Shown piece after piece: positions 37,039-56,730 of a DNA stretch of 64,000 bases; positions within the stretch are counted from its first letter, which is position 1; each line of letters starts with the position of its first letter. The DNA comes from Synechococcus sp. KORDI-52. Lineage in GTDB: Bacteria; Cyanobacteriota; Cyanobacteriia; PCC-6307; Cyanobiaceae. The stretch is from contig NZ_CP006271.1 in the NCBI RefSeq assembly GCF_000737595.1, positions 2,108,001-2,172,000 of the forward strand, read 5' to 3'. The position numbers and the translations under genes were made by a program. Under the pieces are notes generated by a model, which saw only the letters and a list, made by a program, of their open reading frames with translations, searched no databases and was not told where the DNA came from.

Positions 37039-38637
37039 ATGGATCACGCCACCCATGCCACACGTCGACACAATGCTGTCGAACCTCAGGCAGATCACTA
37101 CAACGTCGTGATCATCGGGAGTGGCGCGGGGGGTGGTTCCCTGGCCCGTGCGTTAGCAGACGCAGGCCACTCAATTCTGATTCTGGAACGTGGAGGCTGG
37201 CTGCCAAGGGAGCCACAAAACTGGGATCCGGTCGAGGTGTTTCAGAACGATCGCTACGTCTCAACGGACCCGTGGCAGGACAAGCATGGCAACACATTTC
37301 AGCCGGGTAGTCATTACTTCGTCGGCGGTGCCTCCAAAATGTATGGGGCCGCTCACTTCCGATTGCGGGAGCGCGATTTCGAATCGGTGATGCATGTGGA
37401 TGGCGAATCACCTGAATGGCCGCTGAAATACGACGTCTTCGAGCCGTATTACCGCAAAGCCGAGGAGTGGTATCACGTGCATGGTCTGCGGGGTGAGGAC
37501 CCCACCGAACCACCAGCCTCCTCCGACTATCCCCATGCGCCCATCAGCCACGAGCCGCGCATGCAGAAGCTGGTGGATGACCTGCGCTCAGCAGGGCTGC
37601 ATCCCTTTCATGCACCCACGGGAGTCGCCCTTGATGAGGCAAACCCTGCATTCAGCGCTTGCGTGCGCTGCAACCGCTGCGATGGATTTCCCTGCCTCGT
37701 GCATGCCAAAGGTGATGCGGAAGTGATGGGTGTCCGTCCTGCTCTTGATCACGACAACGTGTTCATGCTCACAGAAGCGGAGGTGCTTCGCCTGAACACC
37801 GATCTGAACGGTCGTCAGGTCACTGATGTTGTGGTGAGGCATCAGGGAGAAGAACGTCGTTTCAAAGGCGACATCGTGGTGGTTTCCGCTGGTGCCGCCA
37901 ATTCGGCACGTCTGCTGCTGATGTCAGCCAACGATGCCCATCCCCGAGGCCTGGCCAACAGCTCCGATCAAGTTGGCAGAAATTACATGTATCACAACTG
38001 CAAAGCATTGGTGGCTCTCGCCCATGAGCCGAACACCACAGTCTTTCAAAAGACTGTTGCGCTCAATGACTGGTATTTCGGCGACAACGACTTCGACTTT
38101 CCTATGGGGAACGTGCAGATGACCGGCAAAACCAATGGGGCAATGATGAAAGGCTACAAGCCGCGACTCACCGCTTTAGCACCCACTTGGAGCATGGATA
38201 AGCTTGCTGAGCATTCGCTCGATTTCTGGCTTCAGACGGAAGATCTTCCACTGGCCAACAACCGGGTCACCATCAATTCAGAAGGTCAGATCAAGCTGAA
38301 CTACACCCCAACCAACACACGGGCCTCCGAAGAACTGGTCAACAGACTGGAGAGATTACTCGACAAGCTGTACCTCAAAAATCATCTGGCCGAACGGCAG
38401 ATCTATTTCGCCTCATCGATGAATCTCGCTGCCGTTGGCCATCAATCAGGCACATGTCGTTTCGGCACTGATCCCAGCACTTCAGTGTTGGACATCAACT
38501 GCCGCGCCCACGATCTGGACAATCTGTATGTGGTGGACACCAGCTTTTTCCCGAGCAGCTCAGCGGTGAATCCATCCCTGACAGCCATCGCCAATGCCAT
38601 CCGAGTGGCAGACCATCTCAAGGAAAGGCTCGGCTGA
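37039..38637 (+). CDS. GMC family FAD oxidoreductase with Cys cluster
   Basis: 532 residues. Residues 21-50 carry the FAD dinucleotide fold (NVVIIGSGAGGGSLARALAD). The C-terminal GMC_oxred_C domain has SGTCRFG and NPSLTAIANAIRVADHL with the catalytic His/Asn region. Cys 208, 211, 214 and 219 form C-x2-C-x2-C-x4-C. Such proteins oxidise sugars or alcohols; electron acceptor unknown. No signal peptide, so cytoplasmic. It has a paralog at 55225 that lacks this Cys cluster. Confidence 0.9.
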   Translation: MDHATHATRRHNAVEPQADHYNVVIIGSGAGGGSLARALADAGHSILILERGGWLPREPQNWDPVEVFQNDRYVSTDPWQDKHGNTFQPGSHYFVGGASKMYGAAHFRLRERDFESVMHVDGESPEWPLKYDVFEPYYRKAEEWYHVHGLRGEDPTEPPASSDYPHAPISHEPRMQKLVDDLRSAGLHPFHAPTGVALDEANPAFSACVRCNRCDGFPCLVHAKGDAEVMGVRPALDHDNVFMLTEAEVLRLNTDLNGRQVTDVVVRHQGEERRFKGDIVVVSAGAANSARLLLMSANDAHPRGLANSSDQVGRNYMYHNCKALVALAHEPNTTVFQKTVALNDWYFGDNDFDFPMGNVQMTGKTNGAMMKGYKPRLTALAPTWSMDKLAEHSLDFWLQTEDLPLANNRVTINSEGQIKLNYTPTNTRASEELVNRLERLLDKLYLKNHLAERQIYFASSMNLAAVGHQSGTCRFGTDPSTSVLDINCRAHDLDNLYVVDTSFFPSSSAVNPSLTAIANAIRVADHLKERLG

Positions 38638-39188: not shown

Positions 39189-40028
39189 TTAAGAAGAAAT
39201 CCAGAGGTGATGACCATCCGGATCACACAGCAACCGCCCGGATCCAGCCGCAGCAGCTTTGACCAGGATCTGCGCATACAAGGCATGCTGAGGCGGCAAA
39301 GCAGCCGATGTGGGTTGCAGAGGAGAAGGGCTGAGATATCTCAGAAATTCAACACCGAAAGGAGCACTACCGCTTAAGCCATGAATGGCCACCTTTGGGT
39401 TGATCACGCGATCCAAGCGCTCCTGTTCGGGCCCCTGATTGAGGCTGGCATATCGAAGTTGTAGGCCAAGATCCACGCCGTAAAACAACAAACTGCGGTC
39501 GCTATCACTGATCGCAATGGCCGTATGGTCCAGTCCCTGAAAGAGAGGACGGTCGTCCTGATGCCAGCGGGAATGCCCTTGATCGGGAGGAAACCAGAGC
39601 AGCTCCATGGCATGACCGGCAGCGTTGCGGAACTTCCATGCCGCCACGCCATTGGGTAACCACTGTGGTGCTTCGGAGATCGGAGCCACAAGAGGCATCA
39701 ACTGCTCAGCAGCGCGTTGCATATCGCTGACCACAATGGCGACATGCTGAAACCAGAGGGTGTTGGAGGCGCCTGGATCGTGGGATTGAACCGTATCGAC
39801 TCCCTCGAAGGAGACATAGTCGAGGCGTTCCTTGCCAAGTCGGTAATGATGAATAACCGCCTGCCCTTTGGTCAGAGCAAAACGTTGTTCAAGGGCCTCA
39901 CCGTCCAGCAAGGATTGCCCCTGATCGACAGCCCCCAGAACCTCAAGCAGAGGATCAAGGCTTCCCGGCGCAGGCAAGGAAAAAGCAACGCCTTGAATCG
40001 ATGCAGATGGACACTGAACATCTGCCAT
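39189..40028 (-). CDS. VOC superfamily (glyoxalase/dioxygenase-like) protein
   Basis: 279 residues with two vicinal-oxygen-chelate modules. The first contains LWFQHVAIVVSDMQRAAEQL and AAWKFRNAAGHAMELLWFP; the second LDHTAIAISDSDRSLLFYG and the metal-binding-type end RLLCDPDGHHLWI. His and Glu at VOC ligand positions are present (QHVAI, MELLW, DHTAI). Substrate unknown. ATG 40028, divergent from the SDR gene across 103 bases. Confidence 0.83.
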   Translation of the reverse strand: MADVQCPSASIQGVAFSLPAPGSLDPLLEVLGAVDQGQSLLDGEALEQRFALTKGQAVIHHYRLGKERLDYVSFEGVDTVQSHDPGASNTLWFQHVAIVVSDMQRAAEQLMPLVAPISEAPQWLPNGVAAWKFRNAAGHAMELLWFPPDQGHSRWHQDDRPLFQGLDHTAIAISDSDRSLLFYGVDLGLQLRYASLNQGPEQERLDRVINPKVAIHGLSGSAPFGVEFLRYLSPSPLQPTSAALPPQHALYAQILVKAAAAGSGRLLCDPDGHHLWISS

Positions 40029-40131
40029 GCATGCGTCCTCCTTTCTGAGAATGTCTTAGCGCCATTTACGCACGAAGCGCTGACGGGATCTGCGAAACCA
40101 GCTATGGAGTGATTGCCCGATCATTCCTCTC

Positions 40132-40932
40132 ATGCCCACACAGGTCCCAAAGGCGATGACCTCTCTGTGTCTGCGTGACAAGGTGATCGTTGTGACCGGA
40201 GGCAATTCGGGGATCGGCAAGGCCATTGTCGAAGCCGTTGGCGCTTTGGGCGCCAAGGTGGTCATTGACTACCGCTCGCATCCTGAGCGCACCGAAGCCT
40301 TGATCGATGAAATTGGTGAATTGGGTGGACAGGCCATTGGCATCCAAGCCGATGTGGCCAAACTTGAGGACATTCAACATCTCATCGACGTCGCGGTAAC
40401 GACGTTCGGCAAGGTGGATGTGATGGTGAATAACGCCGGCATCGAGACCCGCACGTCGATTCTTGACACCACACCGGTGGATTTTGACAAGGTGATGAAC
40501 GTCAACCTTCGCGGTGTGTTCTTCGCCACGCAATACAGCGCCAAACAGATGATTGCCCAAGGGAGCGGTGGGCGAATCATCAATATTTCCTCAGTCCATG
40601 AAGACTGGCCGATGCCAGACAACACTCCTTACTGCATTGCCAAAGGCGGCGTGCGCATGCTCACTCGCACAGCTGGTGTTGAACTGGCGAGCAAGGGGGT
40701 CTCCATCGTGAACGTCGGTCCTGGTGCTGTCGCCACACCAATCAACGACTCGACCATGAACAACCCTGAGCTGATGGCAAAGCTCAATGCGGCCATTCCC
40801 ATGGGCCGCATGGCCCAACCGGAAGAAATCGCCTCGCTTGTGGCCTTCCTCGCCAGTGACGGAGCCAGTTACATGACAGCAACAAGCGTTTTCGCTGATG
40901 GTGGGATCATGATGAGCAGCCCAGGGCTCTGA
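40132..40932 (+). CDS. SDR oxidoreductase, glucose 1-dehydrogenase-like
   Basis: 266-residue classical short-chain dehydrogenase. Cofactor loop VTGGNSGIGKAIVEA, NNAGIETR, the catalytic Ser in INISSVHEDW, and Y-x-x-x-K in TPYCIAKGG. IDYRSHPERTEALI resembles bacterial glucose/sugar 1-dehydrogenases that accept NADP. Sits between the VOC gene and the transporter; alcohol or sugar oxidation is the likely activity. Confidence 0.9.
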   Translation: MPTQVPKAMTSLCLRDKVIVVTGGNSGIGKAIVEAVGALGAKVVIDYRSHPERTEALIDEIGELGGQAIGIQADVAKLEDIQHLIDVAVTTFGKVDVMVNNAGIETRTSILDTTPVDFDKVMNVNLRGVFFATQYSAKQMIAQGSGGRIINISSVHEDWPMPDNTPYCIAKGGVRMLTRTAGVELASKGVSIVNVGPGAVATPINDSTMNNPELMAKLNAAIPMGRMAQPEEIASLVAFLASDGASYMTATSVFADGGIMMSSPGL

Positions 40933-46714: not shown

Positions 46715-47230
46715 ATGCTCGGCTTGCCGATGCTTGAGCTGCTGCCCCCGCTCAACGACAAAAATCTTCCCTGGATCGATGTCATCCACCCCATCGTTGT
46801 TCACTTCGTGATCGCGATGGCTCTGATCACAGTCGTATTCGATGTCATCGGTGTCATCAGCAGCAAGAAGAACCTGTTTGAGGTGAGCTTCTGGAACCTG
46901 ATCGTGGCCACCATGGCGATCTTCGTGGCCATTATCTTCGGCCAGGTCGAAGCCGGTCTCGCCAATCCCTACGGCGCCTCACGGGACATCCTCAATGTCC
47001 ACAGCACCATTGGCTGGTGCTTGGCGGGTGTGCTGGCCCTGCTGACGGGCTGGCGTTATGTCGCACGGCAGAAGGATCCGACGATCCTGCCCAGGGGCTT
47101 TCTCGTTCTCGACGTCATGCTGACAGGTCTTGTGATCACGCAGGTCTATCTCGGCGACAAGCTGGTGTGGGTTTACGGACTCCACACGGTCCCGGTTGTT
47201 GAAGCCATCCGTCAGGGAGTGGTGTCGTGA
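46715..47230 (+). CDS. DUF2231 membrane protein, first of ARTO operon
   Basis: 171 residues from ATG 46715. Four transmembrane helices. The HPIVVHFVIAMALITVVFDV segment is the DUF2231 signature (H-P-x-x-V-H), and a later His lies in NVHSTIGWCLAGVLALLTGW. Function unknown. The GTGA overlap couples it to a second DUF2231 gene, and a terminal oxidase follows. Confidence 0.85.
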   Translation: MLGLPMLELLPPLNDKNLPWIDVIHPIVVHFVIAMALITVVFDVIGVISSKKNLFEVSFWNLIVATMAIFVAIIFGQVEAGLANPYGASRDILNVHSTIGWCLAGVLALLTGWRYVARQKDPTILPRGFLVLDVMLTGLVITQVYLGDKLVWVYGLHTVPVVEAIRQGVVS

Positions 47231-47847
47231 TTGCCTTTGCCGCGTTCGCATCGCCGATCAACGACATCGCCGACTCCCTCGGCTCCAACACCCTTCCCTA
47301 CGCGATCCCTCTGCACCCCAACCTGGTGCACCTGAGCATCGGCCTGTTTGCAATCGCCATCGCCTTTGACGTCGCCGGTGCGTTCTATCCGTTGGAGAAA
47401 AGGGTGTTCCGCTTTCTGGCTTTGCCGGTGACCCGCAGTGGCTTCCACGACGTGGGCTGGTACAACCTCGTGGCCTGCAGCGGCATCAGCTTCTTCACCG
47501 TGGCTGCGGGGTTCTACGAAATGCTGCTGGCGGTTCCGTTGCCGGGCGTTCGCAGCCTGCTGGGCCAAACCGCCATCGACACGATGCTCTGGCATGCCAT
47601 CGGGGGCGTGGCGATTCTGCTGGTGATGGTGGCCATGACGATCTGGCGTGGTTACCAACGGTTTGTCTGGCGCAAGGACATGGGCCGTCAGGTCACCTGG
47701 CTGTATCTGCTCTGTGGCGCCGCCATGCTGCTGGTGATGGGACTCCACGGCAGCCTCGGCGCCTGGCTGGCCAGTGACTTCGGGGTGCACGTCACCGCAG
47801 ACCAGTTGCTGGCAGCCGGCGCCGATCTGCAGGAAGCCTTGCCATGA
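47227..47847 (+). CDS. Second DUF2231 membrane protein
   Basis: 206 residues from GTG 47227. Four helices, with PLHPNLVHLSIGLFAIAIAF (H-P-x-x-V-H) and MLWHAIGGVAILLVMVAM, paralleling the histidines of the preceding gene but otherwise diverged, so an old duplication is likely. It overlaps the subunit II start by four bases (ATGA). Placement suggests membrane partners of the oxidase, perhaps binding heme or quinol. Confidence 0.85.
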   Translation: MIAFAAFASPINDIADSLGSNTLPYAIPLHPNLVHLSIGLFAIAIAFDVAGAFYPLEKRVFRFLALPVTRSGFHDVGWYNLVACSGISFFTVAAGFYEMLLAVPLPGVRSLLGQTAIDTMLWHAIGGVAILLVMVAMTIWRGYQRFVWRKDMGRQVTWLYLLCGAAMLLVMGLHGSLGAWLASDFGVHVTADQLLAAGADLQEALP

Positions 47848-48779
47848 CCACATCCGCTCCCAAGAACGGCCCGAACGTCGGCGCCATCGTGATCATCAGC
47901 ATCGCGGTAGCGATCAATCTGGTGATCGCCAAACTGATGGCCACGTGGTCCTACAGCTGGTTCCCACCCCAGGCCTCCAGCGCAGCCTCTTACGTCGACG
48001 ATCTGTTCGCCCTGGAGACCGGCATCGGCTCCTTCATCTTCTTCGGCTGCACCGGCGTGATGGGCTGGGTCCTGTTGTTCAACAGAGCCGGCAAATACGA
48101 CGAGAGCGACGGGGCACCCATCGAGGGAAACACCAAGCTGGAGATCATCTGGACGATCATCCCTCTGGTGACGGTCTTCGCGATCGCCGCCTACACGATG
48201 AACGTGAACATGAAGCTTCAGACCCTCGGTCCGAAGCACAAGTACGCCATCGGCAGCGATCCCACCACGCTGGTGAGCTTCGACCCCACGGCCGAAATCG
48301 GACCGATTGATGTGATTGCCCGCCAGTGGAGCTGGGAGTTCGTCTACCCCAGCGGCGTGCGCAGTTCTGAACTGCACCTGCCTGTTGATCAACGGGTGAA
48401 TCTCCGGTTGATCTCGCAAGACGTGCTGCACAGCTTCTATGTGCCGGCCTTCCGGCTGAAGCAGGACATCATTCCCGGCAGCATCATTTCCTACAGCCTC
48501 ACCCCCACCAAAGAGGGCAGGTTCCGGTTACGGGACGCCATGTTCAGCGGCGCTTACTTCTCCCAGAACCAGACCGACGTCATCGTCGAATCCGAGCAGA
48601 CCTACGACGGCTGGCTGAAGGCAACAGCCAAACAACCCTTGCAGCCCGGCCTCGATCCAGGACGGCCGCTGTACGACCGACGCCTCAGTCGGGGAGACAA
48701 GGGCTGGGCCACGGTGCCGCCAGCTCCTGCCCCGATGGTGAACGACCCCGGCGATCCCTCCCTCCCCCACGACGCCTGA
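47844..48779 (+). CDS. ctaC: Heme-copper oxidase subunit II lacking CuA (ARTO)
   Basis: 311 residues: two N-terminal membrane helices, then a cupredoxin domain. The region corresponding to the CuA loop reads RLRDAMFSGAYFSQNQ. Relative to canonical C-x-E-x-x-x-C-x-x-x-H-x-x-M, the ligands are replaced by Asp231, Met233, Ser235, Phe239 and Asn242; only His196 (VLHSFYVPA) remains. This matches the cyanobacterial alternative respiratory terminal oxidase, thought to oxidise quinol rather than cytochrome c. The C-terminal tail is Pro rich. Confidence 0.92.
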   Translation: MTTSAPKNGPNVGAIVIISIAVAINLVIAKLMATWSYSWFPPQASSAASYVDDLFALETGIGSFIFFGCTGVMGWVLLFNRAGKYDESDGAPIEGNTKLEIIWTIIPLVTVFAIAAYTMNVNMKLQTLGPKHKYAIGSDPTTLVSFDPTAEIGPIDVIARQWSWEFVYPSGVRSSELHLPVDQRVNLRLISQDVLHSFYVPAFRLKQDIIPGSIISYSLTPTKEGRFRLRDAMFSGAYFSQNQTDVIVESEQTYDGWLKATAKQPLQPGLDPGRPLYDRRLSRGDKGWATVPPAPAPMVNDPGDPSLPHDA

Positions 48780-48787
48780 GACGCGCC

Positions 48788-50476
<1,689 letters not shown>

Positions 50477-50479
50477 CCG

Positions 50480-51076
50480 ATGACCAGTGTCAATCCCGAT
50501 CTCAAGCTCAATCACACGCCGGGGCATGTGAAGCACGACGGCCACAACATGACCGGGTTCGTGATTTTCCTTTGCTCCGAAAGTGTCATTTTCCTTGCCT
50601 TCTTCGCCGGCTATGCAGTGCTGAAGCTGACAGCTCCTCAATGGCTGCCTGACGGAGTGGAAGGGCTGGAGGTGCGCATGCCTCTGATCAACAGCGTGGT
50701 GTTGGTGAGCTCCAGTTTCGTGGCCTATTTCGCCGAGCGTTATCTGCACAAGGGCAACCTCTGGGGCTTCCGTGCGGTATGGCTTCTCACCATGGCCATG
50801 GGCTCCTACTTCGTTTTTGGCCAATACCTCGAGTGGTCAGAACTCAGCTTCAGCCTCAGCAGCGGCGTGTTCGGGGGACTGTTCTATCTGCTCACAGGCT
50901 TTCACGGCCTGCATGTGATCACCGGAATTGGGTTGATGGGCCTGATGTTGGCGCGATCTTTTGTCCCAGGGAACTACGACAAAGGCGAGATGGGCGTCGC
51001 TGCAGTGAGCCTGTTCTGGCACTTCGTCGACGTGATCTGGATTCTTCTCTTCCTTCTGATCTACGTGTGGCAGTAA
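50480..51076 (+). CDS. ctaE: Heme-copper oxidase subunit III (ARTO)
   Basis: 198 residues with five predicted transmembrane helices. The FVIFLCSESVIFLAFFAGY, FYLLTGFHGLHVITGIGLM and LFWHFVDVIWILLFLLIYVW segments are those of subunit III. Shorter than the seven-helix form because the first two helices are missing, as in quinol-oxidase-type and cyanobacterial subunit III. Last gene of the operon; no terminator seen after it. Confidence 0.95.
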   Translation: MTSVNPDLKLNHTPGHVKHDGHNMTGFVIFLCSESVIFLAFFAGYAVLKLTAPQWLPDGVEGLEVRMPLINSVVLVSSSFVAYFAERYLHKGNLWGFRAVWLLTMAMGSYFVFGQYLEWSELSFSLSSGVFGGLFYLLTGFHGLHVITGIGLMGLMLARSFVPGNYDKGEMGVAAVSLFWHFVDVIWILLFLLIYVWQ

Positions 51077-51799
51077 CATCGTAATGAGAACAACAGACGA
51101 GCTCATCTACATCACCAAACCGATCCAAATGGGCCATTCGTTGAGATACGCACAAAGAAAAGAGTTCTTTTAAAGCGGCAATCGCCACCCACCACTTCAC
51201 GATTGCAGCTCTTGAATACCCTCAAGCCAATAGAAATCAGAATCCCCGAACAAAGCCCACAAGATCATTACATCGCTCTTTTCCATTCATTCCCAATTAC
51301 TGAACACAAATCAACCCGTATTCAATCAATACAGTCACAACTCCCGCGAAGAAATGAATGAAGCACCGGATACTACACTAGCAATCATTATATTGAAGAA
51401 TCTCAATCAATCTGCGTGATGCACAGAAAAAATACACAGTCAGCCTTTCAGCGAAACGTTCTTAATTGTTTGATTTGAGTGCAATGAGGGCTTGTCAACC
51501 TTTCCAGCATTGACTGTTGCGTGCTGCCAGAACGAACCAGCAGCTTCCTTACAGAACTCGTGGCATTTGTTGAGCCATGGCGAGCCATCGGCATGGTCCG
51601 CCCTCTGTCGAGAAAAACCTTCGGACGCAAATCCTTACCAACTTGCCCCGATGGAACCGCCATTCAAGTGATCGTCGCAATCGATGTTGACGCACTTCGT
51701 CTGGCAGCGACCGGCTCCCATAGCGGAATCGAGGCCTGACAAACCCTCCCCCAAAGCTGACAACCGAATCATTTGCATCTGTCATCGGAGTTCTATGGC
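51077..51799. other. Gene-poor AT-rich stretch after the oxidase operon
   Basis: About 720 bases, clearly lower GC than the operon. No hairpin terminator or RNA gene recognised. Short plus-strand frames (for example from 51521) look like noise. Confidence 0.4.
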
Positions 51800-51979
51800 T
51801 CAGTCTTTATTTGTTGTTTTCAGCACGCCAACAGCGATCTGGTTGAGAACGACAAGACACGCAGCGGCGGCCAAGACAGCAAGAAAGGGTGCTAATCCAG
51901 CTGCCATCAACGCCGTACTTCCAGCAAAGCCCAAGAACACCCACGCAAAAACAGCCTCTCTTCTCTCTGCCTTATTCAT
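51800..51979 (-). CDS. Small membrane protein (59 residues)
   Basis: ATG 51979 to TGA 51800, translating to MNKAERREAVFAWVFLGFAG, then TALMAAGLAPFLAVLAAAAC, then LVVLNQIAVGVLKTTNKD. A charged N-terminus, two hydrophobic helices of 18-20 residues separated by a short turn, and a polar tail form a good small-membrane-protein profile that is unlikely by chance. Family unknown. It is isolated; the nearest gene is more than 500 bases away. Confidence 0.62.
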   Translation of the reverse strand: MNKAERREAVFAWVFLGFAGSTALMAAGLAPFLAVLAAAACLVVLNQIAVGVLKTTNKD

Positions 51980-52497
51980 CAGAAGGATTCAAGTTGGAAT
52001 CAGCATGCCTGTAGCAACGCGATCCCTCATCCCCCAACTGAGGGAGGAATGAAGGCAAACCATCAGCCTGTGCTGCTGTTCCACAGCCAGAACAGTCCAC
52101 CACTGGTTCACCCCGGTCTCGAAGACACCATCACGAGATACGGTCGCATGGAAGAGCTGGCCGATGAACTGAACACAACGGGGCCGACATCCGTGGAGCA
52201 CACCCAAGACAACGTCCCAACGTTCGATGTCGCGGCGTGCGTATCAAGTGATGCACCATGCACCTCGCCGCCATGGCTACGAAGAAAGTGCTCCAGGGAC
52301 GGCCCGAACCACACTGGGGCGGCGGAACCATCCACTTCGAGGTCTTTTGGCCGGTGGTTTCGCTTGTCCTTCCAGCTCAGCCCGCATCAGGCGAACAACC
52401 CATCTTCTCTGCCGAGTCGGCGCCTCAATTCTGCACTGGTTCACCAATGCGACCCTCCCAAAGCTGCTATCAACAAGGAATGCTGCGTTCTGATCCG
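51980..52497. other. Intergenic stretch, possible gene remnant
   Basis: About 520 bases of near-normal GC. Several overlapping plus-strand frames (from 52049, 52227 and 52258) contain some protein-like stretches but no consistent domain; together they may be a decayed gene. Nothing I can name. Confidence 0.35.
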
Positions 52498-52716
52498 ATG
52501 CGCATTGCTGCGCTGCTACCGCTCCTGCTGGTGATCCCAACACTTGTGTTGGCACAGGAATCGAAGGTCACGGCCGAAGGCATGTCGGAAGAATTTGCGA
52601 TTGCCGAAGCCTTGCGCGAAGTTCCCAAAGGTGCGTCTGTGATTGATACCTCTTGCAGGACCCAAGACGTTGGAGGGTCGACCCGGTACTGGTGCACGCT
52701 CACGTTCACCGATTAG
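52498..52716 (+). CDS. Small exported protein
   Basis: 72 residues from ATG 52498. Signal peptide (MRIAALLPLLLVIPTLVLA), mature chain about 53 residues with acidic helix SEEFAIAEALREVPKGA and two cysteines (TSCRTQ, WCTLTF) for a probable disulfide. No family recognised. Confidence 0.65.
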   Translation: MRIAALLPLLLVIPTLVLAQESKVTAEGMSEEFAIAEALREVPKGASVIDTSCRTQDVGGSTRYWCTLTFTD

Positions 52717-52767
52717 CTGATCGACGCCACAGATGAAGTGCTGGCAGGTCATCAGCACGAGTCGTGA

Positions 52768-53258
52768 TCAGGCGCTAAGGGCCACTGTTCTTGAACCCAT
52801 CTGGCAGGGAACACAGCCTGGGTCACACACCAGCTTCAGGCTGGTATCGGCGGAAAGAATGTTCAGCCCCTGGAGTTGGTAATTGGTTGCACCAGGGATT
52901 TGTCTTGCCTCGGTCAAGGGGAGGTGCGGAACCCGCCTTCTCTTTGAACACTGCTCAGCAATCAGCTCTTGGGCCTTCCAGCATCCACCCACGTCGCGAC
53001 AAGCGAGTTCAGATTTTTTTTCGATTCTGAGAATCTTAAAAATCAAGAATGTTGCGATACCAGCTGCGATGGCTGCAGGCAGAAGCGTGACGAACGGTGC
53101 CACAAGAAAGCATGCAAGCACGCCCACCATGAAAATTCCACGTTGCGAATTCGCAGGGATGGCATAGCCGCATAGCCCATGCTTGCTGCCCATTCACATG
53201 CCGCTTTTTCCTCTTTGCTCAAACCAGAGAATGCAGGTTTTTTCTGGGTTTCCCTCAT
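52768..53258 (-). CDS. Hypothetical membrane protein, possible frameshift
   Basis: The longest frame (53193 to 52768) contains two membrane helices (FMVGVLACFLVAPFVTLLPA and AIAAGIATFLIFKILRIE), then a Cys-rich tail (ELACRDVGGCWKAQELIAEQ). An ATG at 53258 in another frame starts MRETQKKPAFSGLSKEEKAA and reads into the same place around 53140-53190, giving a better-looking cytoplasmic N-terminus. So either the gene starts at 53193 (or ATG 53130), or one frameshift has split it. Function unknown. Confidence 0.45.
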
Positions 53259-53333
53259 TCTGACCTTGCCTCTAGCTTCAATCTAAGCGTGTGCGAAGAA
53301 GTGCAGCGATGCCATCCAGAGCGGGGATGCAGC

Positions 53334-53537
53334 TCACCTGAGCCCGAAGCCTGCATTGACGCCGTTGACATCATGAACCATCTCGACATCCCACCCCTTA
53401 AGAGCTTGTGACGGGATCTTCATCCATCCAGAGACACGTTGACCCTGAGTACACCTGAATGTTGACCAAAGACCTTCTCCAAACATGAAGTCGCGAATAC
53501 GCTGGATCGACGAACCCCTATCAAGCAAGTGAACCAT
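53334..53537 (-). CDS. Possible small hypothetical protein
   Basis: 67 residues beginning MVHLLDRGSSIQRIRDFMFG, with a beta-like end (SGWMKIPSQALKGWDVEMVH and DVNGVNAGFGLR). It overlaps the start of the divergent gene at 53529. The composition is protein-like but there is no motif, so it could be a chance frame. Confidence 0.35.
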   Translation of the reverse strand: MVHLLDRGSSIQRIRDFMFGEGLWSTFRCTQGQRVSGWMKIPSQALKGWDVEMVHDVNGVNAGFGLR

Positions 53538-53801
53538 TTTCTGCTGATCTGCCTTGCGGTTTTGCTTTCACCATCAGCCCATGCGTTTGAGGCCAACAAA
53601 AACTCAGAGGCGGCCTTGGCAGGTTATCAACAATGCCTGTCTGACAAAAGACAAGCACACGCAAAACGGGAGCTTGAATACACTCTATGCATGAGCAAAA
53701 CATACGTCACTGACTTCACCTATTGCCAGCCCCCCGGACCATTCTTTGACGGTGCAGAGTCTGAAACATGCAAATCAGAATTCGGAATCAACAGTGACTA
53801 A
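53529..53801 (+). CDS. Small exported Cys-rich protein
   Basis: 90 residues from GTG 53529. Signal peptide NHFLLICLAVLLSPSAHAF, then about 70 residues with four cysteines (YQQCLSDKR, YTLCMSKTY, FTYCQPPG and SETCKSEF) able to form two disulfides. Unknown. One of several tiny secreted proteins in this AT-richer stretch. Confidence 0.65.
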   Translation: MNHFLLICLAVLLSPSAHAFEANKNSEAALAGYQQCLSDKRQAHAKRELEYTLCMSKTYVTDFTYCQPPGPFFDGAESETCKSEFGINSD

Positions 53802-53942
53802 ACAATCATTCAAGACGACACTCACCTCACTTATTTTTCAAAATAGGCGGCTCCGTAGATCCTCTCTCCCTCGGCCCATAGCGGGTGTTAAAACAAAGAT
53901 TTCTGTTGTTGCTAGAGATACAGAATTTTCATTGTGCTCTTG

Positions 53943-54812
53943 ATGCAGCGTCGATACTTTCTTGCATTCGCCGCCTTCTCAGGGCTTGGCAAACTGTCAT
54001 TCGGCTTGCCTCGACGCTCGAGAGCAGCTCGTGTTGTGCCGTTGCCCCCAACGCTGGATGATCAGACGTCACGATTGGCCAAAGAACTGCTGCACCATCT
54101 CCAGCAACGGGGTTACGAGCTGACGGCCCCTCTTCCTCTAGTGACAGAACATTCCTTTAATGGTGGCCTGCAATTTGATGATGAAATCAAGGGGAGCTCT
54201 TCTGGGCATATTGTGATTCAGCCAGCGGCCCGAGTCGACGACATCAAGCAGAAAGACAGGATCGGTGTTCTGCCACTGTTTCACATCATCAATTTTGATC
54301 AGAGCAAAGGCAGCACGGGCTTTCTTCCTCTGGATCAGACCTTCAATTTCTTGATTCGTCACCTTGGCTTAGAGCCCAGTCGGCTGAGATTCACAGGGAC
54401 TGACAGAGCCCTTTTCCTCTTTCCTTTTCTTGCTGAGCATGGAATTGTCGAATCGCAGGTGCGACTGGTGGACTGGGACAAAGCCCGGGCTCTAGGCACT
54501 GGATCCGGATACTTCGAACCCAAAGGTGATCCCCGCTCCCCCTCCTTCAACACGCTTTCGATTGAATATCTCCTTGATGACGGCAGCGAACTTGAAATTG
54601 GCGAAATCACTCTGACGGATGACCGTCCCGCTGCTGTACGGAGTGCTGGATTTGGTTTGGAGCGACTCAGCTTCGCCCGTGGTGATCGTTTAACCAAGTG
54701 GCATGAAACATTGCCTGCTTTCCGCCGTGCGGTTGAACGTGACGCCCGCCGACAGAGTCTGCCTCTACCAGCGGGCTACTTCGAGATTCTGGGTCGTTCA
54801 ACGTCAGGCTGA
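53943..54812 (+). CDS. Alanyl-tRNA synthetase-like orphan protein
   Basis: 289 residues from ATG 53943 (MQRRYFLAFAAFSGLGKL). The layout resembles the class II catalytic core of AlaRS: HIVIQPAARVDDIKQKDRIG aligns with the AlaRS stretch before motif 2, SGYFEPKGDPRSP with the segment before EIYVD, and AGFGLERLSFARGD with motif 3 G-x-G-L-E-R-L (residues about 236-242). Editing and tRNA-recognition domains are absent, and the motif 2 aromatic/Arg pattern is weak. A synthetase-derived stand-alone protein is likely; activity uncertain. The N-terminus has a hydrophobic stretch after basic residues. Confidence 0.6.
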   Translation: MQRRYFLAFAAFSGLGKLSFGLPRRSRAARVVPLPPTLDDQTSRLAKELLHHLQQRGYELTAPLPLVTEHSFNGGLQFDDEIKGSSSGHIVIQPAARVDDIKQKDRIGVLPLFHIINFDQSKGSTGFLPLDQTFNFLIRHLGLEPSRLRFTGTDRALFLFPFLAEHGIVESQVRLVDWDKARALGTGSGYFEPKGDPRSPSFNTLSIEYLLDDGSELEIGEITLTDDRPAAVRSAGFGLERLSFARGDRLTKWHETLPAFRRAVERDARRQSLPLPAGYFEILGRSTSG

Positions 54813-55224
54813 ATTCTGACTGGTGTTGGCCATACCTCCGGCGCGCCACTCCTACTCAGGTGGTGTTCATGCTGATTGTCAGCTGACTGTCGAGCACCTC
54901 ACACTGAGCACGCGTCCAGTAGCCGAGGTTCTGCCGGTCGTGCCACTTTGTCGTCCAGAGAAGCTGACGAGCTCGCGGTCATCGACAAAAGGCCAATTCC
55001 CCACTGTCCTTGATGCAGTGCACGTACCAGACAAGATCGACGGTGGACCTGATGGCCTGTTGCGAGGGAGGCGTTCAAATCCAGAAGATCTACCTACCTT
55101 TTGAGAAGACGACCTGCGTCGGATCGGTGCGTGACACTGACGTGACACAACCCAAAAACAGCCCCTTCAATCATCGTTTGCTGCAGCAGGCGCTCTCTCC
55201 TGATTTACGTCTGGCAGTCAACCC
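54813..55224. other. Intergenic stretch before second GMC gene
   Basis: About 410 bases. Opposite frames from 54823 (+) and 54879 (-) look like mutual shadows without motifs. I see no terminator or RNA gene. Confidence 0.35.
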
Positions 55225-56730
55225 ATGATCATCGACGACAACCATTACGACGTCATCGTTATCGGCAGTGGTGCAGGAGGGGGAACGCTGGCGGGAGCCC
55301 TGAGCTGTCAAGGCAAGAGCGTGCTGGTGCTGGAGCGGGGCGGAGCGATGGCCCTCGAAGACCAAAACGTCGCCGACGTGGATCTGTTCCGCAAAGATCG
55401 CTATCACCCCAAAAGTGAGCGCTGGTTCGGCCCCGACGGCGATCCCTTTGCTCCGCAAACCACCTACGCGCGCGGTGGCAACACCAAGATCTGGGGCGCA
55501 GTTCTGGAACGGATGCGTGAACAGGATTTCAGCGAAATTGCTCTTCAGGACGGCATCTCACCGGCATGGCCCCTGGAGTACGACGCGCTGGCGCCCTACT
55601 ACCAACAAGCCGAACAGCTGTATCGGGTTCACGGCAAGGCAGGCGTGGATCCCACCGAACCCAGCCGCAAGGGAGATTTCCTGGCACCGCCCAAGCCGAT
55701 CGAACCCTTTCTCGAACCCCTGCGAAGCGCCCTACAGCGGCAGGGCTGTCAGCCTTATGACATCCCGATCAGCTGGTCGGACGATGCGGACGATCCCAGC
55801 GGTGATTCCCAGCTGTTTGGACTGCAGGTGGCTGACCCAAAACGGCTCACTGTGCGGGACAACGCTCGGGTGTTGCGCTTGCACGTGAATCCCAGTGGCC
55901 GAGCCATTCGGGGCGTGGAAGCGGAGGTGAACGGCGATGCCTGGTTGTTCAGCGGAGACGTGGTGGTGCTCGCCGCAGGGGCGATCAACACCCCTGCCAT
56001 CTTGATGCGCTCAGAAAATGCCCACCATCCCAAAGGCATCAGCAACGGATCCGATCAGGTGGGCCGGAATCTGATGAATCTGCAGCTCACCTCAATCCTG
56101 CAGCTGGCCACGGAACGCAACAGCGGCCGCTACGGGCGTTCTCTGGGTATCAACGACTACTACTGGGGAGACAAGAACGTCAGGTTCCCCCTGGGGCACA
56201 TTCAGGCCGCCGGTGGCGTGCTGCAGGACGCGCTCTTCGCCGAGTCACCACCGGTTCTCTCACTGGTCACCAAGCTGATCCCCGATTTCGGATTGGAGCG
56301 CCTGGCCTCCCGCTCGGTGGCCTGGTGGGCCATGACCGAAGTGCGCCCGGATCCCCACAACAAGGTGTGGCTCAACAATGAGCAGATCCGGATCAACTAC
56401 ATCCCCAACAACCGCGAAGCCCACGACCGGCTGGTGTATCGCTGGATCGACACCCTCAAGGAGGTGGAAAACGACCCGATGACGCAAGTGGTGATGAAAG
56501 CGCCCACCCATGCCCGTGGTGAGGCCCCTCTCAGTGTTGTTGGCTTTGGCTGCGGCACCTGCCGCATGGGTGAAGACGCCGCCAGTTCTGTGGTGGACCC
56601 TCAGGGCAAATGCCATGAACTCGAGAACCTCTACATCGCCGACAGCAGCGTTTTTCCCAGTTGCCCAAGCGTTGGCCCTGGCCTCACCGTGATCGCCCTG
56701 GCGCTGCGGCTTGCCGATCACCTGTCCTGA
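55225..56730 (+). CDS. GMC family FAD oxidoreductase (second copy)
   Basis: 501-residue paralog of the GMC protein at 37039. FAD fold HYDVIVIGSGAGGGTLAGAL at the N-terminus, substrate-pocket PAWPLEYDALAPYYQQAEQL, and C-terminal GFGCGTCRMGEDAASS with GPGLTVIALALRLADHL. It lacks the four-Cys cluster and replaces that region with an acidic loop (SDDADDPSGDSQL). No signal peptide. The likely activity is sugar or alcohol oxidation; electron acceptor unknown. Convergent with gor. Confidence 0.9.
   Translation: MIIDDNHYDVIVIGSGAGGGTLAGALSCQGKSVLVLERGGAMALEDQNVADVDLFRKDRYHPKSERWFGPDGDPFAPQTTYARGGNTKIWGAVLERMREQDFSEIALQDGISPAWPLEYDALAPYYQQAEQLYRVHGKAGVDPTEPSRKGDFLAPPKPIEPFLEPLRSALQRQGCQPYDIPISWSDDADDPSGDSQLFGLQVADPKRLTVRDNARVLRLHVNPSGRAIRGVEAEVNGDAWLFSGDVVVLAAGAINTPAILMRSENAHHPKGISNGSDQVGRNLMNLQLTSILQLATERNSGRYGRSLGINDYYWGDKNVRFPLGHIQAAGGVLQDALFAESPPVLSLVTKLIPDFGLERLASRSVAWWAMTEVRPDPHNKVWLNNEQIRINYIPNNREAHDRLVYRWIDTLKEVENDPMTQVVMKAPTHARGEAPLSVVGFGCGTCRMGEDAASSVVDPQGKCHELENLYIADSSVFPSCPSVGPGLTVIALALRLADHLS

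Follow-up and report, generated by a model that had tools for sequence, protein, structure and literature searches.

How are electrons delivered to a heme-copper oxidase that lacks CuA, the usual entry site? The question is raised by an operon in the window, the whole analysed stretch of 64,000 nucleotides from Synechococcus sp. KORDI-52 (contig NZ_CP006271.1, positions 2,108,001 to 2,172,000). On one strand of the window, two genes for DUF2231 membrane proteins, designated A and B, precede the genes for oxidase subunits II, I and III in the order A-B-II-I-III.

The operon and its oxidase

Gene A (46715..47230, forward strand) encodes 171 residues, starting with ATG at 46715 and ending with TGA at 47228–47230. 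According to the alignment, the start is possibly at 46730, because M6 aligns with the first Met of relatives. Gene B (47227..47847, forward strand; 206 residues) starts with GTG at 47227 and ends with TGA at 47845–47847, and the gene for subunit II (ctaC2-like, 47844..48779, forward strand) starts with ATG at 47844. Thus, A and B share the stop-start word GTGA (47227..47230, forward strand), and B and subunit II share ATGA (47844..47847, forward strand), as read directly in the sequence. The tandem His-bearing genes and both four-base overlaps had been described in the sequence-only reading, and the coordinates are confirmed here; the word 'fused' used there does not hold, since A and B overlap without fusion. 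The genes for subunit I (ctaD2-like, 48788..50476) and subunit III (ctaE2-like, 50480..51076) follow on the same forward strand. The genome is a single contig of 2.57 Mb, and its only two DUF2231 matches are A and B.

For comparison, 79 loci were named, corresponding to the best 80 of 542 confirmed stretches in a scan of genome contigs; because they were kept by likeness to one cbb3-linked B protein, they are not a random sample. A and B are joined by a 4-bp stop-start word in 52 of the 79. The ATGA spacing between B and subunit II is rare among them, and is also found in two loci of the window's family (L194 and L195). Long reading frames in G077 (401 aa for both proteins), G257 (526 aa), G191 (658 aa) and G217 (389 aa) were considered as A-B fusion proteins and rejected: in G077 the DNA shows that A ends at a stop codon before B, and in G257, G191 and G217 the frame 5' of B does not resemble A.

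The gene order is the same as that reported for the operon alr2729-alr2730-coxB3-coxA3-coxC3 of Anabaena PCC 7120, described in the available text of PMC6616624 as the ARTO oxidase (type 1; also Qox or Cox3). With this oxidase the window locus shares a CuA-less subunit II and the kept heme and CuB ligands. From their position in relatives, we infer that alr2729 and alr2730 are DUF2231 genes. In the accessible parts of three expression and regulation papers, the two genes group with cox3B and cox3A in a co-regulation table (PMC7065334); alr2730 and coxB3 are lower in a sigC mutant, a second table listing alr2729 and alr2730 (PMC4390870); and NtcA binding is recorded upstream of alr2729 under the entry 'cox3 operon' (PMC3898017). 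ARTO is presented in the published text seen as a bo3-type quinol oxidase of three subunits, with the upstream genes called 'hypothetical' or 'putative membrane protein', whereas here the upstream genes belong to DUF2231 and are nearly inseparable from the oxidase, whose subunit I has none of the bo3 quinol-site residues. The operon is therefore already published; the DUF2231 nature of the pair and its near-inseparability from the oxidase are added here. No function for the DUF2231 pair was found in the literature, in which coverage of subscription papers was thin, so earlier work may exist.

The sequence-only reading had described an oxidase without CuA, and this is borne out. Subunit II of the window lacks the CuA ligands, and Cys was found at neither CuA Cys position in any of 78 rows from the named loci, while two control subunit II rows (L033 and L034) keep both Cys, the His and the Met. 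A larger alignment holds 103 rows that are not all distinct genes, as the window's own stands there three times and some contigs are duplicated; for this reason the 78 named rows are quoted. In the 103 rows the first Cys is replaced by Asp or Asn, the second by Ser and the His by Phe; the upstream CuA His is kept in all 103 and the Met in 94.

Subunit I was compared with E. coli CyoB. The positions which we take, in CyoB numbering, to be those of the heme and CuB ligands (H106, H421, H284, H333, H334 and H419, with Y288) are kept in 70 of 70 ARTO sequences, as are K362 and D135. The E. coli cytochrome bo3 (CyoABCDE) has the same heme and CuB ligand positions in subunit I, and its subunit II also lacks CuA. 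No DUF2231 gene is annotated around the E. coli cyo operon. In contrast to E. coli bo3, the ARTO sequences keep none of the quinol-site residues R71, D75, H98 and Q101 (0 of 70 at each position), and these positions are hydrophobic or small in all 70. This residue cluster is named in the available text of PMC10256718, which prints Glu101 where CyoB has Gln. R71, D75 and H98 are also absent from 12 CuA-type controls of the same phylum, nine of which keep Q101. Their loss therefore points to a cytochrome c oxidase ancestry no less than to a special design. A phmmer search with subunit I ranks cytochrome c oxidases well above E. coli bo3. According to these sequence comparisons, ARTO subunit I is a cytochrome c oxidase relative with no CuA partner and no bo3-type quinol site. 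An oxidase that lacks these residues may depend on an extra module for electron input; subunit I could also have its quinol site in another place.

Histidines, topology and fold of A and B

Both proteins match PF09990 (DUF2231), A with 121.1 bits and B with 127.3 bits against a cut-off of 26.4, and neither has a Pfam match to PepSY. Four TM helices are predicted for A and four main TM helices for B. In helix 1 the motif H-P-x-x-V-H is present (H25 and H30 in A; H30 and H35 in B). A third His lies in helix 3 (H96 in A; H123 in B), and a fourth directly after helix 4 (H157 in A; H188 in B). The helix 1 motif and a His in a later helix had been seen before, and they are real, but the conserved His number four per protein.

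In two alignments, A2 (77 A sequences) and A3 (81 B sequences), four His are invariant, the first two of them by choice, because the rows were picked with the motif that contains them. Therefore, the His were recounted in every A and B reading frame of the 79 named loci and the window, using no motif filter, and the result was upheld. In A, H25 and H30 are present in all 79 rows that reach them (two of the 81 rows are cut), and H96 and H157 in 81 of 81. In B, all four His are present in 81 of 81 rows, and H174 in 76. The four His are thus invariant in A and B wherever the sequence is complete, and their conservation is beyond chance.

Single DUF2231 proteins of cyanobacteria show a part of this pattern. 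All of 13 distinct sequences have the first helix 1 His and the helix 3 His. The second helix 1 His, found in every complete A and B, is present in none of the 13, and the column of the helix 4 His, by the unfiltered alignment, holds a His in none of them either. These results indicate that two His are common to the DUF2231 proteins examined, and that the other two mark the oxidase-linked pair. In a tree that includes 15 cyanobacterial single rows (three of them duplicates), A and B form clades of 15 sequences each with supports of 0.93 and 0.92, and A plus B form one clade against the singles with a support of 0.90 (midpoint root). A and B are distant paralogues.

AlphaFold2 models show four main TM helices in each protein, with mean pLDDT of 83.5 for A and 78.8 for B. 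The numbers of Lys plus Arg in loops 1-2 and 3-4 are 1.9 and 3.8 for A and 3.1 and 4.6 for B; on the opposite side they are 0.2, 0.3 and 1.2 for A and 0.5, 0.9 and 2.3 for B. According to the established positive-inside rule, the His side of A and B faces the periplasm or lumen. The four conserved His are therefore predicted on the periplasmic or lumenal (p) side, the side on which CuA would be expected.

On helical wheels, the His shared with the singles (H25 and H96 of A; H30 and H123 of B) lie 18–38° from the conserved face, whereas the second helix 1 His lies 174° (A) and 159° (B) off it. Among the His-bearing helices, the moments are significant for helix 3 only; those of helix 1 are not significant. 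Ala or Gly is found four residues after the second helix 1 His and four residues after the helix 3 His. A sandwich of the second helix 1 His and the helix 3 His was at first attractive, since helices 1 and 3 are diagonal. It is disfavoured, because the second helix 1 His is on the outer side, as far as the non-significant helix 1 moments tell, and is absent from the singles. Pointing off the conserved face, this His is itself not an obvious axial partner, and the first helix 1 His is the better partner of the helix 3 His.

No Foldseek match to the PDB below E 0.2 was obtained for A or B. The VIA structural rows were general four-helix bundles, including COX III and designed proteins; Dcytb, b561 and cytochrome b6 were among the structural rows, level with generic bundles, bd and COX III. 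A profile search against PDB sequences gave nothing for A up to E 1 and nothing for B below E 0.1. The four-helix b-type cytochromes (b561, Dcytb and b6) have, like A and B, four TM helices with invariant His, whereas the four conserved His of A and B are at one membrane side, and b561-type proteins hold hemes at both. Homology to cytochrome b561 was considered and dropped. PF01292 is the second-commonest Pfam match (77 of 77 A and 43 of 81 B, rows that are close relatives), but the best E-values are 0.0071 (A) and 0.0086 (B), the scores shown reach at most 16.3 bits against a cut-off of 30.1, the registers are inconsistent, and the aligned profile ranges differ between members.

Linkage of the pair and its neighbours

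The linkage was examined in 146 genomes of the phylum with a completeness of at least 90. In these genomes, 115 DUF2231 matches form 44 tandem pairs and 27 singles, and 140 COX2 matches were found. By score rank, the COX2 rows fall into 96 higher-scoring ones, 41 low-scoring ones that make up a block (E 1.6e-10 to 7.8e-6) and three weaker ones; the CuA ligands were read in the separate subunit II alignment of 103 rows. A COX2 lies 536–770 bp downstream on the same strand in 37 of the 44 pairs. All 37 belong to the block of 41, and each genome with a block row also has a tandem pair. No pair was found within 5 kb of any of the 96 higher-scoring or three weaker COX2 rows, and no COX2 within 5 kb of the 27 singles, one of which is about 11 kb from a COX2.

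The block rows unlinked to a pair are in G070, G074, G087 and G054, each with a pair elsewhere in the genome. The seven pairs with no adjoining COX2 are those of G070, G074 and G087 (a split arrangement), the second pair of G054, and the pairs of G056, G105 and G036. The second G054 pair adjoins shortened copies of subunit II (106 aa) and subunit I (453 aa) on L039 (6611-9864); an intact II-I-III set without a pair is found on L040 (6672-9905). The pair of G056 consists of two single-type (GHPLHP) genes and was left out of the 43 A/B pairs. Then, A/B pairs are present in 37 genomes, 35 of which have a block COX2, and neither is present in 109 (Fisher p about 1e-31, kinship ignored).

The patchy occurrence of the oxidase in the window's family (121 genomes with a completeness of at least 80) makes for a sharper test. 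An A/B pair is present in 63 of 63 family genomes with two or more COX2 matches. Another 57 of the 121 have one or no COX2 and no DUF2231, and one genome (G221) has a DUF2231 fragment: its neighbourhood (L192) holds a remnant of A and no match to B or the oxidase. The Fisher p is about 4e-34, uncorrected for kinship. Second COX2 copies are among the matches listed for 32 of the 63 genomes, and all 32 lie 558–635 bp after B. The 79 named loci have A and B in all, subunit II in 77, subunit I in 73 and subunit III in 66. One locus with no subunit II (L069) ends 135 bases after B; in another (L132), A-B is followed by an NDH-2-like gene with no oxidase within 14 kb. In a Gloeothece plasmid (L152, 5693-8594), genes annotated as SDR and VOC are directly before A-B, and no oxidase follows; SDR and VOC relatives are also found at 39189-40932 of the window. 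In cyanobacterium PCC 7702 (L105, 1111-13639), an NDH-2-like gene comes after two tandem A-B-II-I-III sets, and the subunit III frame of the second set is short.

The sequence-only reading would have been undermined by pairs unlinked to oxidases in most genomes; instead, 37 of 44 lie directly upstream of COX2, and the earlier observation is real and general. Its proposed gene-order rule stands in part. In cyanobacteria the pairs are tied to CuA-less oxidases, and none of the 96 higher-scoring COX2 rows is near a pair. The absence of DUF2231 from CuA-containing oxidases is not general, since single DUF2231 genes on proteobacterial plasmids adjoin CuA-containing oxidase genes.

These plasmids are nine regions among 137 records matching a single-type query. 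On plasmids of Roseomonas, Alteromonas, Paracoccus and Shinella, a single DUF2231 gene lies on the opposite strand between CopD and a coxB with CuA ligands. A cytochrome c oxidase assembly gene is next in line on three of these plasmids and farther off in Alteromonas. On Mesorhizobium and Bradyrhizobium plasmids (L154, 4902-6745; L157, 4884-6679), the single DUF2231 gene overlaps a sorbosone dehydrogenase gene by 4 bp, and its product is possibly a membrane partner of the dehydrogenase. On plasmids of Azospirillum, S. meliloti and Pelagibacterium, neither coxB/CopD nor sorbosone dehydrogenase adjoins the DUF2231 gene. The second helix 1 His is present in three of the four singles beside coxB and in none of the five others. 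A general redox role would suit these contexts, and only the cyanobacterial pair goes together with the lack of CuA. In a different context, four cyanobacterial singles (L041, L045, L046 and L049) have, no more than about 2.5 kb away, a gene for a protein of about 350 residues; in L045 this protein matches Pfam Hemerythrin, and the DUF2231 gene there has an LmeA-like neighbour.

The A/B pair itself is not confined to the CuA-less oxidase: two genomes have it next to genes for an NDH-2-like enzyme and a cbb3-like oxidase. In G105 (L042, 1008-6135), CcoN-like and CcoO-like genes, the latter with a FixS-like C-terminus, are followed by A, B and the flavoprotein; G036 (L043, 5578-10657) has CcoN-like, A, B, flavoprotein. 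The B protein linked to cbb3 has a C-terminal extension of about 100 residues with no Pfam match. Among the sampled genomes of the window's class, only G105 and G036 have the close CcoN type, with identities of 100 and 56% to that of L042 used as query; the CcoN of G038 has 40%. The flavoprotein matches Pfam Pyr_redox_2 and no NCBIfam model over its cut-off, and the best matches of the L042 copy among solved structures are NDH-2 NADH dehydrogenases (YjlD, E 1e-36). According to the accessible text of PMC6878006, the plasma membrane of Synechocystis contains ARTO subunits together with the type-2 NAD(P)H dehydrogenases NdbB and NdbC.

Another flavoenzyme is more frequent beside the oxidase. Of 64 evaluable loci, 53 have a GMC oxidoreductase gene 3' of subunit III in the same orientation, within 1 kb in 50 of the 53. 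An NDH-2-like gene is somewhere in the locus in eight of the 64; one locus has both, and four have neither. In the window, GMC2 (55225..56730, forward strand) lies about 4.1 kb 3' of subunit III, and GMC1 (37039..38637, forward strand) is upstream of the operon. In L194 and L195, GMC2 directly follows subunit III and GMC1 comes about 3 kb later; the 4.1 kb of unclear ORFs between subunit III and GMC2 in the window (51077-55224) looks like a later insertion or rearrangement. A CxxCxxCxxxxC cluster, which may bind an Fe-S cluster, is common to the GMC1 type (window, L059, L065, L085, L091, L092, L114, L116, L120 and L126), whereas the GMC2 type is without it. By eye, neither GMC1 nor GMC2 has an obvious signal peptide; thus they would act on the cytoplasmic side, most simply by reducing quinone. 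No literature linking a GMC oxidoreductase with a terminal oxidase in cyanobacteria was found. All neighbour clusters other than those of the oxidase, GMC and NDH-2-like genes occur in at most 13 of the 79 loci; by eye, the two largest resemble a response regulator and an ABC transporter rather than genes of iron uptake.

Possible roles of A and B

The pair is the best candidate for electron entry to an oxidase without the usual entry site. Judging from the gene context and the sequences, A and B may serve the CuA-less oxidase (ARTO/Qox) as dedicated membrane subunits or as close partners, and form its electron-input module; we give this reading a probability of slightly less than one half (about 0.45). 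The step from near-inseparability to an input module is a reasoned one. A flavoenzyme on the cytoplasmic side, GMC oxidoreductase or NDH-2-like, would reduce plastoquinone. The A/B heterodimer would bind a redox cofactor with its p-side His, and would oxidise quinol at this putative p-side cofactor. Then, electrons would pass from A/B to the low-spin heme of subunit I, replacing CuA and cytochrome c. A and B would probably be a b-type cytochrome or another putative metal site oxidising quinol. The cofactor would most likely be heme b, held between the first His of helix 1 and helix 3; this step is weaker than the step to an input module, because the fold searches were generic. A heme b or quinol-oxidising module had been proposed in the sequence-only reading: the tie to CuA-less oxidases in cyanobacteria and the invariant His speak for it, and the lack of a significant Foldseek match speaks against it. 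Also against an input module are L132 and L152, which carry A-B with no adjoining oxidase, the proteobacterial singles beside CuA-containing oxidases, and the account in the available text of PMC6616624, in which ARTO oxidises PQH2 directly at subunit I.

A wider proposal is possible, though doubtful. DUF2231 may be an unrecognised family of membrane electron carriers. To the two entry routes of heme-copper oxidases, cytochrome c through CuA and the bo3 quinol site, A/B would add a third. A complete respiratory chain would then be encoded in one operon, running from the GMC (or NDH-2-like) enzyme through quinol and A/B to the CuA-less oxidase, and the outward helix 1 His specific to A/B may hold a cofactor at the A-B interface.

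The main rival, which we consider unlikely, is that A and B are maturation factors that reduce or hand over copper, or insert heme, for the CuB-only oxidase and have no role in turnover. The His cluster on the p side suits a metal site, and the plasmid single DUF2231 gene adjoins CopD in four cases, with the assembly gene next in three. The model is CrpH (PepSY_TM), as an example of a metal reductase that works with heme; in the accessible text of PMC13038864, CrpH is a heme-binding membrane protein that supports heme-copper oxidases and has functional heme-binding motifs. CrpH and PepSY_TM proteins are likewise membrane proteins tied to these oxidases, but A and B have no PepSY match, and the DUF2231 pair is inside the oxidase operon itself. 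CuA-type oxidases need CuB too, but pairs are missing within 5 kb of all 96 higher-scoring COX2 rows; the A-B genes beside an NDH-2-like gene without oxidase (L132) and the overlap of single DUF2231 and sorbosone dehydrogenase genes (L154 and L157) are further points against maturation.

It is distinctly improbable that A and B are structural, cofactor-free subunits that form a plastoquinol site, from which the heme of subunit I takes electrons directly. The missing bo3 quinol-site residues of subunit I, the lack of a significant structural match to heme proteins and the invariant polar residues N61, E79, Q143, W152 and Y154 of A, which could bind quinol, are consistent with such a role. But a quinol site would not require as many as four invariant His in each protein at matching positions, and the Ala or Gly four residues after the second helix 1 His and the helix 3 His also argues against it. 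That A/B is a ferric reductase of ARTO, diverting electrons to periplasmic Fe(III) and so explaining the loss of ferric reduction reported for the Synechocystis ARTO mutant, is very unlikely: the p-side His cluster and, in the text available, the mutant phenotype and the ARTO enrichment in low-iron Prochlorococcus (PMC7676907, PMC10119275) favour it, but the largest other neighbour clusters do not resemble iron uptake, and the mutant reported in PMC10119275 lacked ctaD2 and ctaE2, so the iron phenotype does not point to A/B.

If A and B are the input module, the result bears on an oxidase that is widespread in cyanobacteria and that the literature, as far as available, ties to low-iron ocean life, iron reduction and heterocyst respiration. 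The electron donor of ARTO has so far been inferred by analogy with cytochrome bo3. The quinol-site residues do not bear out this analogy, and attention turns first to the two neglected genes. A widespread DUF family would gain a function, and GMC oxidoreductases would be tied to respiration.
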